NCBI RefSeq assembly: GCF_014207655.1
Contig: NZ_JACHHJ010000001.1
Span: forward strand, 930,001-994,000
Source: Geomicrobium halophilum
GTDB taxonomy: Bacteria; Bacillota; Bacilli; Bacillales; Marinococcaceae
Direction of reading: 5' to 3'
DNA: 64,000 bases
The translations under genes were made by a program, and so were the position numbers. Positions 17,465 to 22,458 of the stretch are shown here, piece after piece; position 1 is the first letter of the stretch; each line of letters begins with the position of its first letter. The notes below the pieces were generated by a model. It did no database searches. It saw only the letters and a list, made by a program, of their open reading frames with translations, and was not told the DNA's origin.

Positions 17465-18082
17465 ATGCGTCTGGAACGGATTGCCGCTAATAAAATTAAA
17501 GTGTTTCTCACCTTTGACGATTTACAAGAGCGTGGTTTAACGAAAGAGGATCTATGGCTGGATCGCCCACGGGTACACCAATTATTCCGCGACCTTGTCA
17601 TGGAGGCAGACACTTCATTGGGCTTTAAGGCTGATGGGACTTTGTCTGTTGAAGTGTTCGCATTACCTGCACAAGGAATGGTCATCCATATATCGAAAAA
17701 TGAGACGGAAAATGAAGAAGATGATATGATAGAAATGGATATTACTGTAGATGAGCGATTGGATTTATTTTATAAATTCCAGGATTTCGAGGCGGTCTTG
17801 CAACTTGTTGCCATATTTACGCGTCTTGGCGTAAAAAGCGGGAAGTTAATGTCTATGGACGGTTACTACTATCTCCATTTTCCGGCAAGGATACGTTACG
17901 ATTTAGGGTATGATCGTTGTGTTGCGCTTATTTCAGAATTCGGGGAAGCCTGTCCACATTCCCCGGTTGTTGTCGAAGAACATGGTTCGATATTAATTAA
18001 GAAACAAGCGGTTACTAAATTAGCATCAGCTTTTAGTCTTCGTAAAGAAGCCGAAAATGTGGAAAAAGAAGCCGATTTTTAA
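17465..18082 (+). CDS. ypbH: MecA-family adaptor protein (YpbH/MecB)
   Basis: Adaptor of 205 residues expected to deliver substrates to the ClpC-ClpP protease. The N-terminal domain (MRLERIAANKIKVFLTFDDLQERG) is very close to MecA/YpbH and binds target proteins. An acidic linker near residues 79-92 leads to the C-terminal ClpC-binding domain. AAGGAGGG precedes the ATG. The position before gudB and ypdA is that of B. subtilis ypbH, the MecA paralogue, so that name is preferred over mecA. In MecA itself the function is control of ComK. Confidence 0.88.
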   Translation: MRLERIAANKIKVFLTFDDLQERGLTKEDLWLDRPRVHQLFRDLVMEADTSLGFKADGTLSVEVFALPAQGMVIHISKNETENEEDDMIEMDITVDERLDLFYKFQDFEAVLQLVAIFTRLGVKSGKLMSMDGYYYLHFPARIRYDLGYDRCVALISEFGEACPHSPVVVEEHGSILIKKQAVTKLASAFSLRKEAENVEKEADF

Positions 18083-18198
18083 TATAGTTAAAGGGAGACG
18101 ATTCAAGCGAGAATCGGAAGAATGAAATGTTAACTCATTGGGTTTGGGTTGTAACATCTAAACCCGAATCCAATCGAACATATGGAGGTGTCCCTTAC

Positions 18199-19476
18199 AT
18201 GGGGGAGAACGGAAAAGAGCAAGCGGTGGCTGATTCAAAAGGTCATCGTCATGAATTTACAAAAGCGCAAGAGGTTATCCATTATGCGTTAGAGCAATGG
18301 GGTTACCCATTTGAAGTCTATGAACTATTACGTGAGCCACTTCGAACATTAACCGTCCGTATTCCAGTGAAGATGGATGATGGAAGGACTGAGGTATTCA
18401 CGGGCTACCGTGTACAACATAATGACGCTGTAGGTCCTGCCCTTGGAGGTGTTCGTTTTCATCCAGAAGTGATGGAAGATGATGTTAAATCTGCCGCGAT
18501 ATGGGCGTCTCTGCAATCAGGGCTCGTGGATATTCCCTACGGAGGCGCAAGCGGCGCGATCGTATGTAATCCAACGAAGCTTTCATTCCGGGAGTTGGAA
18601 GCTTTGAGCCGCGGTTATATTCGGGCGATTATCCCATCCATTGGCTCAACGAAAGACGTAATCACCCCGGACGCTGTTACGAATACACAAGTGATGGCAT
18701 GGATGCTTGATGAATACAGTCAGTTCAGTGCGTTGGACCCCTCAGGTTTCATGACTGGAAAACCCGTTCTAGGCGGATCTTTAGGACGGGAAGTTGCGCT
18801 CGCTAAAGGGGCCGCCATCATAGCCAAAGAAGCAGCAAAACAGGAAAACATACAGTTAAAAAATGGCCGGGTCGTCATCCATGGCTTTGGGAATGTAGGT
18901 ACTTATGTGGCCAAGGAATTAGTAGAGCAAGGGGTAAAAATCGTCGGTGTTTCCGATGGGTATGGAGCTCTGCATGATGAAGACGGGTTAGATGTTGATT
19001 ACTTACTGGATCGTCGTGATAGCTTTGGTATGGTTACAAATCTGTTCAAAAACTCGATCTCCAAAGAACAGTTGCTCGGTGTTGATTGCGACCTGATCAT
19101 TGATGCTTCAAGGGATCGCGTAATGACGCCAAAAACGGTTAAATCAATAAAGGCTGATCTTCTCGTGGAAACGGGCAAACGCACGATTTCTGAAGAAGCT
19201 TCTGCACAGTTGCATGAGCAAGGAACAACTGTTATTCCTCATGTTCTTACGAGTGCTGGTAATAAAGTGCTTTCTTACTTGGAAGGTGTACAAAACCACC
19301 AAGGATATTACTGGATGGAAGAAGAAGTGAATGAGAAATTACAACAAATAATGGAAAATGCATTATCTGTGGTCTATGAGCATTCACGTAAACGCAAAAT
19401 GGACATGCAACAAGCTGCCTACATGATTGGCATTCACAAACACGCTGAATCCTGCCGTTTACGGGGATGGATCTAA
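18199..19476 (+). CDS. gudB: glutamate dehydrogenase homologue (GudB position) lacking active-site lysines
   Basis: Length (425 residues) and sequence follow GudB/RocG along the whole chain, and the order ypbH-gudB-ypdA is that of B. subtilis. The NAD fold is intact (GFGNVG) and the active-site aspartate (Asp158) is kept. The three lysines that bind glutamate and catalyse the reaction (Clostridium symbiosum K89, K113, K125) are replaced: PALGG has Leu82, ASLQSG has Gln106 and GGASGA has Ser118. The conserved PAAIENQ and EAANGPT loops are also changed (IDASRDRV, ETGKRTIS). Ordinary glutamate oxidation is therefore unlikely. ATG 18199 is chosen for GGAGGTG eight bases upstream. A regulatory or structural role is inference. 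Confidence 0.85.
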   Translation: MGENGKEQAVADSKGHRHEFTKAQEVIHYALEQWGYPFEVYELLREPLRTLTVRIPVKMDDGRTEVFTGYRVQHNDAVGPALGGVRFHPEVMEDDVKSAAIWASLQSGLVDIPYGGASGAIVCNPTKLSFRELEALSRGYIRAIIPSIGSTKDVITPDAVTNTQVMAWMLDEYSQFSALDPSGFMTGKPVLGGSLGREVALAKGAAIIAKEAAKQENIQLKNGRVVIHGFGNVGTYVAKELVEQGVKIVGVSDGYGALHDEDGLDVDYLLDRRDSFGMVTNLFKNSISKEQLLGVDCDLIIDASRDRVMTPKTVKSIKADLLVETGKRTISEEASAQLHEQGTTVIPHVLTSAGNKVLSYLEGVQNHQGYYWMEEEVNEKLQQIMENALSVVYEHSRKRKMDMQQAAYMIGIHKHAESCRLRGWI

Positions 19477-19534
19477 TTTTATTAGGTATATTGTATGGTG
19501 ATCTTGGAGATCGTAAGGGTTGGAGGAATCAAAC

Positions 19535-20530
19535 TTGATACACGAAAAAATCGTCATTATCGGTGCCGGTCCCTGCGGTTTAGCAGCAGCAATTGCATGT
19601 AAGGAAAAAGGATATGACCCGTTGGTCATAGAGAAAGAAAATGTCGTTTCCGCGATTTATCACTATCCGACACATCAAACCTTTTTCAGTACTGCAGCTA
19701 AATTGGAAATCGGTGACGTGCCTTTTATTACCGTTGATCGCAAACCGAGACGTAATGAGGCACTTGCGTATTACAGAGATGTGGTGGAGCGTAAACAATT
19801 ACGTATCCACACGTATGAAACCGTTAAGGGTGTACAAAAATCAGCCGATGGGACGTTTGAATTGTATACAACTACGGCTAAAGGAGAGCCGAAAGAATAC
19901 TTTGCAACGTATGTCATTATGGCGACCGGATACTATGATCACCCTAATAAACTTGGATGTGAAGGAGAGCACCTTCCACACGTTTATCATTATTTTAAAG
20001 AAGCCCATCCTTTTCATCATCAAGACGTTGTCGTGATTGGTGGGAAAAATTCAGCTGTTGATGCAACACTGGCTTTGGAGAAAGCAGGAGCAAATGTGAC
20101 CGTTTTATATCGTGGAGGTACGTACTCATCGAGTATAAAACCATGGATTTTACCAGAATTTGAAGGACTTGTACGGAAGAATAACGTTGATATGATCTTT
20201 GATGCTGAAGTCACAAGGATCACCAAAAATAAGGTATATTACGAGAAGAATGGGGAAAAGGCCGATATCGACGCTGATTTTGTTTTTGCCATGGTTGGTT
20301 ATCATCCCGATCACTCTTTTTTATCTGCAGCTGGTGTAACGATTGACCAAGAAACGGGGAGACCGCACTATGATCCTGAGACCTTAGAAACGGACATATC
20401 AGGATTATTCATTGCCGGAGTATTGGCCGCTGGTAATAATGCTAATGAAATCTTTATTGAAACGGGAAGATACCACGGCAGCCGCATAGTTGAAGCGATC
20501 AAATCCGCTGAAAACGTCCAGCAGACGTAA
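19535..20530 (+). CDS. ypdA: bacillithiol disulfide reductase YpdA (Bdr)
   Basis: FAD/NADPH-dependent reductase that regenerates bacillithiol from its disulfide. The FAD-binding start GAGPCGLAAAIA contains Cys14, the conserved cysteine of Bdr proteins. The NADPH motif GGKNSAVDATLALEKAG lies near residue 170 and the C-terminal FAD motif near residue 290. Length is 331 residues. The start is the TTG at 19535, eight bases after GGAGG; the in-frame TTG at 19520 overlaps that site. It lies downstream of the gudB-like gene, as in B. subtilis, and just before ansA. Confidence 0.92.
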   Translation: MIHEKIVIIGAGPCGLAAAIACKEKGYDPLVIEKENVVSAIYHYPTHQTFFSTAAKLEIGDVPFITVDRKPRRNEALAYYRDVVERKQLRIHTYETVKGVQKSADGTFELYTTTAKGEPKEYFATYVIMATGYYDHPNKLGCEGEHLPHVYHYFKEAHPFHHQDVVVIGGKNSAVDATLALEKAGANVTVLYRGGTYSSSIKPWILPEFEGLVRKNNVDMIFDAEVTRITKNKVYYEKNGEKADIDADFVFAMVGYHPDHSFLSAAGVTIDQETGRPHYDPETLETDISGLFIAGVLAAGNNANEIFIETGRYHGSRIVEAIKSAENVQQT

Positions 20531-20540
20531 GGGGCACAAA

Positions 20541-21512
20541 ATGAAAAAGATTGCACTAATCACTACCGGAGGAACGATTGCGAGCAGGGAAACGAAAGAG
20601 GGTCGTTTACGCGCAGGAGAACGATCGGGGCAAGAACTTATTGAGAAGTGTGACGTCCCTTTTGACTTGGATTTAAAGGTTATTTCTCTTTTAAATAAGC
20701 CATCCGTTCATATTGCTTATGAAGACTTATGGTTGTTAAGATCAACGATAGTGGACGTGCTCCATCATAAAGACATTGCCGGTGTTGTTGTTACATCAGG
20801 AACGGATACACTTGAAGAAGTGGCCTATTTTCTGGATTTAACTATAGAAAATAAAAAGCCCGTGGTGGTGACTGGTTCCCAACGGGGGCCAGACCAAGTG
20901 GGTAGTGACGCATTTGTTAATTTACGAAATGCAATGATCGCTGCAGCTGATGAACGGGTGACCGCGCTTGGACCAGTCGTGATTTTTAATGAACGTATTT
21001 TCTCAGCAAGGTATGTACGGAAAGCCCATGCTTCCAATGTACAAGGATTTAATACCTTAGGGTACGGTTACTTTGGTATTATTGATAACGATCGTGTTAA
21101 CCTTTATCAGCGCCCACTGTCCCGCGATATATATGAACCAAAAAGTGAAATCGCGAAAGTCCGTCATCAAGTGGAAATTATAAAAGTACACTTAGGAACC
21201 TCACCTTTTCTGTTAGAACACCTTTTACAATTAGAGACGATTGACGCTATAGTCATTGAAGGGTTAGGCAGGGGACAAGTCCCTGCTACTTTCATGCCGG
21301 CAATTGCAAATGCGCATATCCCTATTGTGATTACAACGAGCGCTGAAGAGGGAAAAGTATATCCAACGTATGATTATGCTGGCAGTACTTATGATTTGCT
21401 TAATCATGGGGTGATTTTAGGAAAAGACTACAGTAGCCGAAAAGCAAAAATAAAACTGTATGTATTATTAGAAACCGGTGAAACTAATTTCCAAGAAGCA
21501 TTTCAAAGATAA
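20541..21512 (+). CDS. ansA: type I L-asparaginase
   Basis: Hydrolyses L-asparagine to aspartate and ammonia in the cytoplasm. The two catalytic threonine motifs are present: TTGGTIAS near residue 10 and TSGTDTLEE near residue 84, with the downstream VVTGSQRGPDQVGSD region. Length is 323 residues with no signal peptide, matching cytoplasmic AnsA rather than the exported type II enzyme. The ATG at 20541 follows an AAGGGGC ribosome site ten bases after the ypdA stop, so the two genes are probably co-transcribed. Confidence 0.93.
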   Translation: MKKIALITTGGTIASRETKEGRLRAGERSGQELIEKCDVPFDLDLKVISLLNKPSVHIAYEDLWLLRSTIVDVLHHKDIAGVVVTSGTDTLEEVAYFLDLTIENKKPVVVTGSQRGPDQVGSDAFVNLRNAMIAAADERVTALGPVVIFNERIFSARYVRKAHASNVQGFNTLGYGYFGIIDNDRVNLYQRPLSRDIYEPKSEIAKVRHQVEIIKVHLGTSPFLLEHLLQLETIDAIVIEGLGRGQVPATFMPAIANAHIPIVITTSAEEGKVYPTYDYAGSTYDLLNHGVILGKDYSSRKAKIKLYVLLETGETNFQEAFQR

Positions 21513-21916: not shown

Positions 21917-21943
21917 AAGCACTTTAAGGAGAAAAAAGACTAT

Positions 21944-21977
21944 GGCTTTCGCTATTTTGCGAAAGCCGAGTATTTTT
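21944..21977 (+). terminator. strong hairpin with T-run upstream of the metI control region
   Basis: Perfect 9-base stem GGCTTTCGC / GCGAAAGCC with loop TATTTT, followed shortly by TATTTTT. It may be a second terminator that insulates the met operon from upstream transcription. Confidence 0.65.
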
Positions 21978-22116: not shown

Positions 22117-22149
22117 TAATGAAAAGTAAAAACTTAGTCAAATGTATTT

Positions 22150-22251
22150 CTTATCTAGAGAGACTGAGGGAAAGGGCCCTAAGATGTCTCAGCAACCAGC
22201 TCTTTTGAGTCAGGTGCTACTTCCTGCGGAACGATGGTTCCGAAAGATAAG
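22150..22251 (+). promoter_or_regulatory. SAM-I (S-box) riboswitch aptamer
   Basis: The sequence carries the S-box hallmarks in order: P1 strand CTTATCTA, AGAGAGACTGAGGGA, GGCCCTAAGA, CAGCAACC, a variable arm and the P1 partner AGATAAG. It binds S-adenosylmethionine and in this family turns off downstream sulfur and methionine genes when SAM is abundant. The next genes are metI and the homocysteine methyltransferase, in agreement. Confidence 0.95.
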
Positions 22252-22362
22252 AAGAGGCTCTCATGCAGAATGCTTTCTTCTTACGATAGGGAGGCGCTAG
22301 GGTAGCGTTATAAAGGAATGACGCTTCTTAGAGTTACTTTCGATAAGGAGGAGGCTTTTTTT
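22248..22362 (+). promoter_or_regulatory. expression platform of the SAM riboswitch
   Basis: TAAGAAGA (22248-22255, overlapping the 3' strand of P1) is perfectly complementary to TCTTCTTA (22276-22283), a probable antiterminator that excludes P1. A run of seven T ends at 22362, preceded by CTTCTTA / TAAGGAG, a weak stem with one wobble pair. A canonical strong terminator was not resolved by eye, and the T-run lies about 110 bases after the aptamer, further than usual. Confidence 0.5.
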
Positions 22363-22458
22363 ATACGATAAAAAATATTTCATGACAGTATAGATTACAC
22401 GGCTAAGTTTTTGATGTTAGGCATGTCAAGAAAAGGCAACGAGAGGAGAGAAGGTCAT

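Follow-up and report, generated by a model that had tools for sequence, protein, structure and literature searches.

The pseudo-GudB locus

The window (the whole stretch of 64,000 nucleotides that was analysed) encodes, in an open frame at 18199-19476 confirmed by direct translation, a glutamate dehydrogenase (GDH) homologue, hereafter pseudo-GudB. The gene and its surroundings comprise the following features.

17465..18082, + strand: MecA-family gene (mecB/ypbH-like), the conserved upstream neighbour in genomes with pseudo-GudB
18184..18190, + strand: probable ribosome-binding site GGAGGTG, read directly, before the ATG at 18199
18199..19476, + strand: pseudo-GudB gene, a gudB orthologue whose 425-aa product lacks the three active-site lysines
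19520..20530, + strand: ypdA-like pyridine nucleotide-disulphide oxidoreductase gene, the conserved downstream neighbour
20490..21512, + strand: ansA-like asparaginase gene, on the same strand as pseudo-GudB, with a likelier start at ATG 20541
21943..21968, + strand: terminator-like stem-loop 3' of ansA, from a consensus scan that found 5 against 4.1 expected by chance

The same gene order, with fer or serA upstream, then mecB, the GDH gene, ypdA and ansA, and yjcJ-type and yitJ-type genes further downstream, is repeated in eight other regions from genomes with pseudo-GudB (L143-L148, L154 and L155), and the part of the G010 region that was covered holds mecB, ypdA and part of ansA. In 5/5 relatives whose gudB keeps the lysines wholly or in part, ypdA likewise follows gudB. 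The window gene sits at this conserved gudB locus, which is orthologous to the gudB locus of Bacillus subtilis. A SAM riboswitch (RF00162, 89 bits) was detected at window positions 22148-22253 (+), before genes at 22411 and 23601 that were taken as cystathionine-synthase type and yitJ type.

A GudB-like protein without the active-site lysines

Both Glu/Leu/Phe/Val (ELFV) dehydrogenase domains, PF00208 and PF02812, were found in the window protein with 180.9 and 153.6 bits against curated Pfam cut-offs of 23.4 and 25.3, which places it in that superfamily. The closest solved chains are B. subtilis GudB (7mfm, 3k8z) and RocG (3k92) and the GDHs 8ysw and 8i83; the alignments start at residue 13-22 and run to the end (E 3e-145 to 4e-151). 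The initial annotation had described a GudB/RocG match along the whole length, with the GFGNVG motif and Asp158 kept, and this was confirmed.

At residues 82, 106, 118 and 158 the window protein reads L, Q, S and D, against K, K, K and D (KKKD) in the RocG-like protein of the same genome and in most family members. They correspond to K89, K113, K125 and D165 of Clostridium symbiosum GDH in the numbering of the initial annotation; the coordinates and spacings which it gave for Leu82, Gln106 and Ser118 were right. It had also called the PAAIENQ and ANGPT loops altered, and they indeed read DASRDRV in place of PAAIENQ and ETGKRTIS in place of EAANGPTT. The positions of interest within the gene are as follows.

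18442..18444, + strand: codon 82, Leu, equivalent to C. symbiosum GDH K89 (place computed from 18199)
18514..18516, + strand: codon 106, Gln, K113 equivalent
18547..18558, + strand: codons 117-120, A-S-G-A (G-K-G-G in active enzymes), S118 being the K125 equivalent; A117, S118 and A120 are fixed in 8/8 complete pseudo-copies
18568..18570, + strand: codon 124, Asn, equivalent to RocG D122
18670..18672, + strand: codon 158, Asp, kept, D165 equivalent
18883..18900, + strand: codons 229-234, GFGNVG, the dinucleotide-binding motif, kept
19009..19053, + strand: codons 271-285, DRRDSFGMVTNLFKN, the DRRDSFG segment; no other 15-residue block is as well kept over the deepest division of the pseudo-clade
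19102..19110, + strand: codons 302-304, D-A-S in place of the PAA of active enzymes, with D302 and S304 fixed in 8/8 pseudo-copies

The lysines of a catalytic GDH at the K89, K113 and K125 places are missing from the window protein and from every other pseudo-copy, and the aspartate at the D165 place is present in the window protein and replaced by Glu in copies L012 and L066. Leucine and phenylalanine dehydrogenases also have Leu or Ile in place of K89, a change of side-chain specificity, and keep the K113 and K125 equivalents, which ELFV amino-acid dehydrogenases require. The K89 replacement could by itself mean a new specificity; the pseudo-copies have Gln or His at 106 and Ser at 118, and this loss of the K113 and K125 equivalents argues against any deamination of the ELFV type.

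An AlphaFold2 model of the window protein, built with 21 of our own sequences, had a pLDDT of 79.8 and a pTM of 0.80, with pLDDT below 50 at residues 1-16, 158-164 and 176-194; its best PDB matches were GudB in 9a5j and 7mfm (TM 0.90). One residue of the GKPxxLGG stretch near residue 190 is missing from the window copy alone and present in the other 15 sequences aligned.

Distribution and origin of the pseudo-copies

To describe the distribution, we used a family set of 29 genomes, in which G000 is the window's genome. Complete copies without all three lysines were found in G000, G016, G021-G024, G007 and G010, and broken ones in the Geomicrobium drafts G008 and G009; the copy lacks the lysines in 10/10 genomes of four genera (g1, g5, g7 and g9) of one family, g9 being at a guess Salicibibacter. 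I/Q/S was read at the lysine sites in g7 and four g9 genomes, of which one also carries D158E; three Geomicrobium-type genomes have I/H/S, and a fourth has I/Q/S with D158E. Sequencing error at the lysine codons was ruled out, since the same losses occur in independently sequenced genomes. The Marinococcaceae listing in the available part of PMC10408702 includes Geomicrobium, Natribacillus, Salicibibacter and Salsuginibacillus, among others.

Among 33 named loci from a collection of 84,980 species, obtained by an exact-peptide search that is no census and holds no g9 locus, five were pseudo-copies (Natribacillus halophilus and four Geomicrobium-type) and 28 kept the lysines. In a scan of 397 genomes of the order that scored at most four candidates per genome and sampled no g9 genome, just four genomes reached profile scores of 750-801 bits, each of them a member of this family; the next best among the matches listed was 605 bits. 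In a scan of 398 genomes of the class, the two that passed 1e-190 were both of this family. Mobile spread was considered and rejected: the GDHs of 292 plasmid records, as judged from the 8 listed, are all less than 60% identical.

In the tree, the pseudo-copies (nine rows, one of them partial) lie on one side of a branch with support of 100/99, and with the active-site columns removed the support was 97/96 (eight rows, with a bootstrap that had not fully settled). The pseudo-clade nests in the GudB/RocG part of the tree, apart from the outgroup GDHs, and the tree does not settle its sister group. By its best solved matches, the shared gene order and the tree, the window gene is a member of the GudB/RocG orthologue group, and pseudo-GudB is very probably the gudB orthologue of one Bacillota lineage turned pseudoenzyme.

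One relative, L019 of G001, has only the K113 equivalent changed, to Gln, together with an ETGKR loop like that of the window, and is possibly intermediate to the pseudo-copies. Its placement as sister of the pseudo-clade had support of 98/97 with all columns; this was lost without the active-site columns, yet the placement was not rejected (p-AU 0.41). The G001 genome has a GltC orthologue, and a full-length gltA match was not found there.

Residues lost and residues newly fixed

Conservation was counted over eight complete pseudo-copies and 76 non-identical active GudB/RocG sequences. The count leaves out L018/L021 (Asp158Glu), L019, the broken L030, duplicate or partial copies, and other GDH groups (L003, L004, L032, L034, L081, L082, L084, L085, L089-L092 and L096). 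There are 175 positions at least 95% conserved in the active sequences; 65 of them remain unchanged in 8/8 pseudo-copies and 28 differ in every one, with a mixed pattern at the remainder. At ten of the 28 changed positions all eight pseudo-copies share one new residue (D95, A100, A117, S118, A120, I155, V266, D302, S304 and T351), and seven of these ten fall in motifs that line the GDH cleft. With ten residues newly fixed, the cleft looks re-made rather than drifting. Overall, the pseudo-alignment has 125 invariant positions among 425, so that the former catalytic sites show no more freedom than other positions.

S359 is kept in 8/8 pseudo-copies and D158 in 7/8. Across the deepest split within the pseudo-clade, with 43% identity overall, the DRRDSFG segment (271-285) is 97% conserved; it was not found in the other GDH groups aligned. 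Positions 307, 308 and 328 of the nicotinamide-side loops vary within the pseudo-clade, and 19 residues kept by both the active enzymes and the other pseudo-copies are changed in the Geomicrobium copies.

These residues bear on the idea of a re-purposed pocket, in which the altered cleft (I/L82, Q/H106, A117-S118-x-A120, I155, D302-x-S304 and T351) would bind a new small ligand or run a new reaction, as a sensor or a new enzyme acting alone and without GltAB. The ten residues fixed across the 43%-identity split, the retained dinucleotide motif, the presence of D158 in all but two copies and the Leu/Phe dehydrogenase-like replacement of K89 would all fit it, whereas the variable loop positions and the missing K113 and K125 equivalents speak against it, the latter because any reaction would need other chemistry. 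We regard a re-purposed pocket as a serious but rather doubtful alternative.

Selection on pseudo-GudB

To ask whether the gene is kept or decaying, we estimated dN/dS by the NG86 method; a value for GDH was obtained for 9/13 genome pairs, and synonymous sites were saturated in G000/G016, G005/G006, G002/G003 and G028/G003. GDH dN/dS was 0.041 and 0.042 in two Geomicrobium pairs, 0.095 for G016/G023 (at a synonymous distance of 1.9) and 0.14-0.26 in five g9 pairs, in which neighbouring genes had 0.05-0.19; for comparison, the active GudB gave 0.045 in G002/G004. With values of 0.04-0.26, not near 1, pseudo-GudB is under purifying selection, which in g9 is for the most part weaker than that acting on neighbouring genes. 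By dN/dS, the GDH gene of the pair G007/G010 is constrained equally with ansA and more than ypdA.

By identity, GDH is less conserved than most of its neighbours, except in a close Geomicrobium pair in which ypdA and ansA are less alike than GDH. Between the pseudo-copy genomes G016 and G007, GDH is 43% identical against 50-73% for the eight neighbours compared, and between G028 and G003, with active enzymes, it is 87% identical against 35-76% for the four compared. The locus also holds a small DUF2663 gene that in two pairs is even less conserved than GDH, and low identity alone is therefore no sign of decay. The drafts G008 and G009 (L155 and L154) have broken frames in GDH, and also in gltA and some neighbours of yjcJ or yitJ type, which makes sequencing error likely there; the GDH pieces of G009 overlap by a few bases.

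Slow decay would make pseudo-GudB a relic under weak selection, retained through its gene cluster and a harmless fold. The low identity relative to neighbours in G016/G007, opposite to that in the active pair, the mostly higher dN/dS than that of neighbours in g9 and the broken Geomicrobium frames are in its favour. Against it are the dN/dS of 0.04 in two Geomicrobium pairs, the newly fixed residues, the presence of the copy in 10/10 genomes of four genera, the breakage of other genes in the same drafts and the still lower conservation of the DUF2663 gene, and we judge decay improbable. The view of the initial annotation that this is a retained pseudoenzyme rather than a decaying gene is supported by its single clade, conserved locus, dN/dS well below 1 and newly fixed residues.

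Other GDHs, mixed hexamers and GltC

The window's genome encodes a RocG-like GDH with KKKD, 52% identical to pseudo-GudB, whose gene adjoins a 401-aa ORF that is presumably an ornithine aminotransferase. Two further GDHs, one GdhA-like and one of 460 aa, also have intact lysines, and the activity of all three is inferred from these residues. A GDH remnant with stops lies at C1:74960-75948 (pieces L005, L006 and L008) and is a real decaying GDH.

The initial annotation had suggested that pseudo-GudB might form mixed hexamers with an active GDH; it would then be a regulatory subunit beside active GudB or RocG. This is possible in the window's genome, given its RocG-like enzyme, and the available part of PMC9570180 describes such a case in Thermus, where GdhA is an inactive regulatory subunit acting with GdhB. 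It would not extend to the other 9/10 genomes with pseudo-GudB: there the search turned up GdhA-like proteins (~30-33%), proteins of the 460-aa type and remoter relatives, but not a further GudB/RocG-type protein with intact lysines. A candidate active partner from the same GDH group was seen in 1/10 genomes, the window's own. A role in mixed hexamers is very improbable. It is also hard to credit that pseudo-GudB is still an active GDH using other residues: S359 in 8/8 copies, D158 in 7/8 and the intact predicted fold would allow it, but the three lysines and the nicotinamide-side loops have all changed together.

The proposal least likely to hold, which we practically dismiss, is that pseudo-GudB is a dedicated controller of the transcription factor GltC, a role raised in the initial annotation that the genomes contradict. 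GudB and RocG do bind GltC in B. subtilis, as stated in the available part of PMC6794564. A GltC orthologue was found in 0/10 genomes with pseudo-GudB (two had only a 28-29% match and eight had none at 1e-45) against 11/19 other family genomes, at 50-60% identity; the search started from a LysR gene elsewhere in the order that was assumed to be GltC from its position next to gltA, and we attach no probability to these counts since the genomes are related. By eye, no LysR-like ORF lies beside gltAB in seven regions from genomes with pseudo-GudB, and the same was seen for regions from relatives whose GudB is active; one region (G104), which held the gudB locus instead of gltA, was excluded. Position 124 is Asn in 8/8 pseudo-copies, the same change as RocG D122N, which reportedly abolishes GltC control in the 2010 work of Gunka; among the active GudB/RocG sequences it is Asp in 66/76 and also Asn in 10/76.

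A probable non-catalytic role and a possible link to GltAB

Pseudo-GudB probably retains a non-catalytic role. It would still form a GudB-like hexamer, neither making nor breaking glutamate, and would work by binding, most plausibly to glutamate synthase GltAB or to a small ligand. In B. subtilis, GltAB binds and inactivates GudB, according to the available part of PMC10938345. The dead hexamer could hold or tune GltAB rather than oppose the synthase, and its re-made cleft might report a ligand to it. Taken on its own, GltAB as the partner is possible, though with some doubt, and the full reading, a dead GudB hexamer acting by binding and most plausibly on GltAB, is the one that we tentatively prefer. 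A more elaborate and unlikely version would have the cleft rebuilt as a ligand sensor, making the hexamer a stand-alone GltAB regulatory subunit that replaces the GltC/GudB arrangement of B. subtilis.

In favour of the dead-hexamer reading, the predicted fold, GFGNVG and the DRRDSFG segment are retained while the lysines and the nicotinamide-side loops are changed, and the GDH remnant in the window's genome shows, by contrast, what decay looks like; the single clade, the conserved locus, the low dN/dS and the newly fixed residues also count for it. Points against it are the lower conservation of the gene compared with most of its neighbours, the 19 residues changed in the Geomicrobium copies, and the broken frames of two Geomicrobium drafts, in which further genes are broken as well.

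The GltAB part of this reading was compared with the occurrence of gltA, which is present in 9/10 genomes with pseudo-GudB (its frame is broken in two drafts, G008 and G009) and absent from G024. There, gltAB has been lost and ~225 bp of the 5' end of gltA are left between conserved neighbours (L209, G024:C1:366000-384000). The G024 pseudo-GudB alone changes R71, D153, D158, T161 and A416, five residues that the other pseudo-copies retain; each of the other five non-Geomicrobium copies has 0-1 such breaks. The loss of gltAB together with these changes is suggestive of a link between pseudo-GudB and GltAB, in one genome; as worked out by hand from pairwise values, dN/dS is higher on the G021 branch, where gltA is present, than on that of G024. 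Because gltA was found by domain search in 28/29 family genomes, in some as shorter relatives only, its presence is weak evidence for the link.

The DRRDSFG segment was considered as a GltAB-specific dock and rejected, as it is equally conserved in 18 active GudBs from genomes with gltA and in 23 sequences (22 KKKD and one KKKE) from genomes taken as gltA-negative. One of the latter genomes is 62% complete, and for 14/23 the lack of gltA was read from no match at 1e-120, a threshold that hides divergent copies.

Comparison with known systems

Pseudo-GudB resembles B. subtilis GudB and RocG in its full-length homology, predicted fold (TM 0.90), DRRDSFG segment, dinucleotide motif and locus, and differs from them in the K89, K113 and K125 equivalents, in the PAAIENQ and ANGPT loops and in the lack of GltC from its genomes. 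Another inactive GudB at the same locus is GudB-CR of B. subtilis 168. According to the available parts of PMC4285742 and PMC6794564, respectively, GudB-CR owes its inactivity to an 18-bp direct repeat and is unstable and rapidly degraded, and it can revert, whereas the changes in pseudo-GudB are scattered and fixed across four genera. Thermus thermophilus GdhA (in the GdhA-GdhB hetero-hexamer, PDB 3aoe) is likewise a GDH homologue without catalytic activity that serves in regulation (PMC9570180, available part), but acts with active GdhB, for which no counterpart was found in 9/10 genomes with pseudo-GudB. Staphylococcus aureus YwlG is discussed as a possible GDH-related pseudoenzyme in the available part of PMC9522360. 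No description of the pseudo-GudB of this lineage was found in the titles and abstract starts of the open-access literature searched; a lineage-wide, stand-alone pseudo-GudB appears undescribed, and inactive GDH homologues as such are already known.

In Bacillus, GudB has been studied in depth, as a catabolic enzyme that also moonlights. A lineage without GudB chemistry and without GltC that nevertheless keeps the protein would be a natural separation of function, in which the residues still conserved point to what GudB does apart from catalysis. Should the lineage be salt-loving like its named members, as we guess for the window's genus, it may also illustrate how a cell in great need of glutamate gave up glutamate breakdown by GudB without losing the protein.

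Other GDH changes in relatives

In genus g4, the GudB proteins L018 and L021 (of G006 and G005) have Glu in place of the catalytic Asp as well as altered GGSKGG and AASGS loops, and they keep the lysines. They lie on a branch other than the pseudo-clade, and the Asp-to-Glu change is a second and separate one in the same family. In 12 loci of Salinicoccus and relatives (L045-L049, L052-L054 and L058-L061) a second GDH gene lies close to the first, and the second GDH of Salinicoccus (L045) keeps the lysines and has no DRRDSFG segment.
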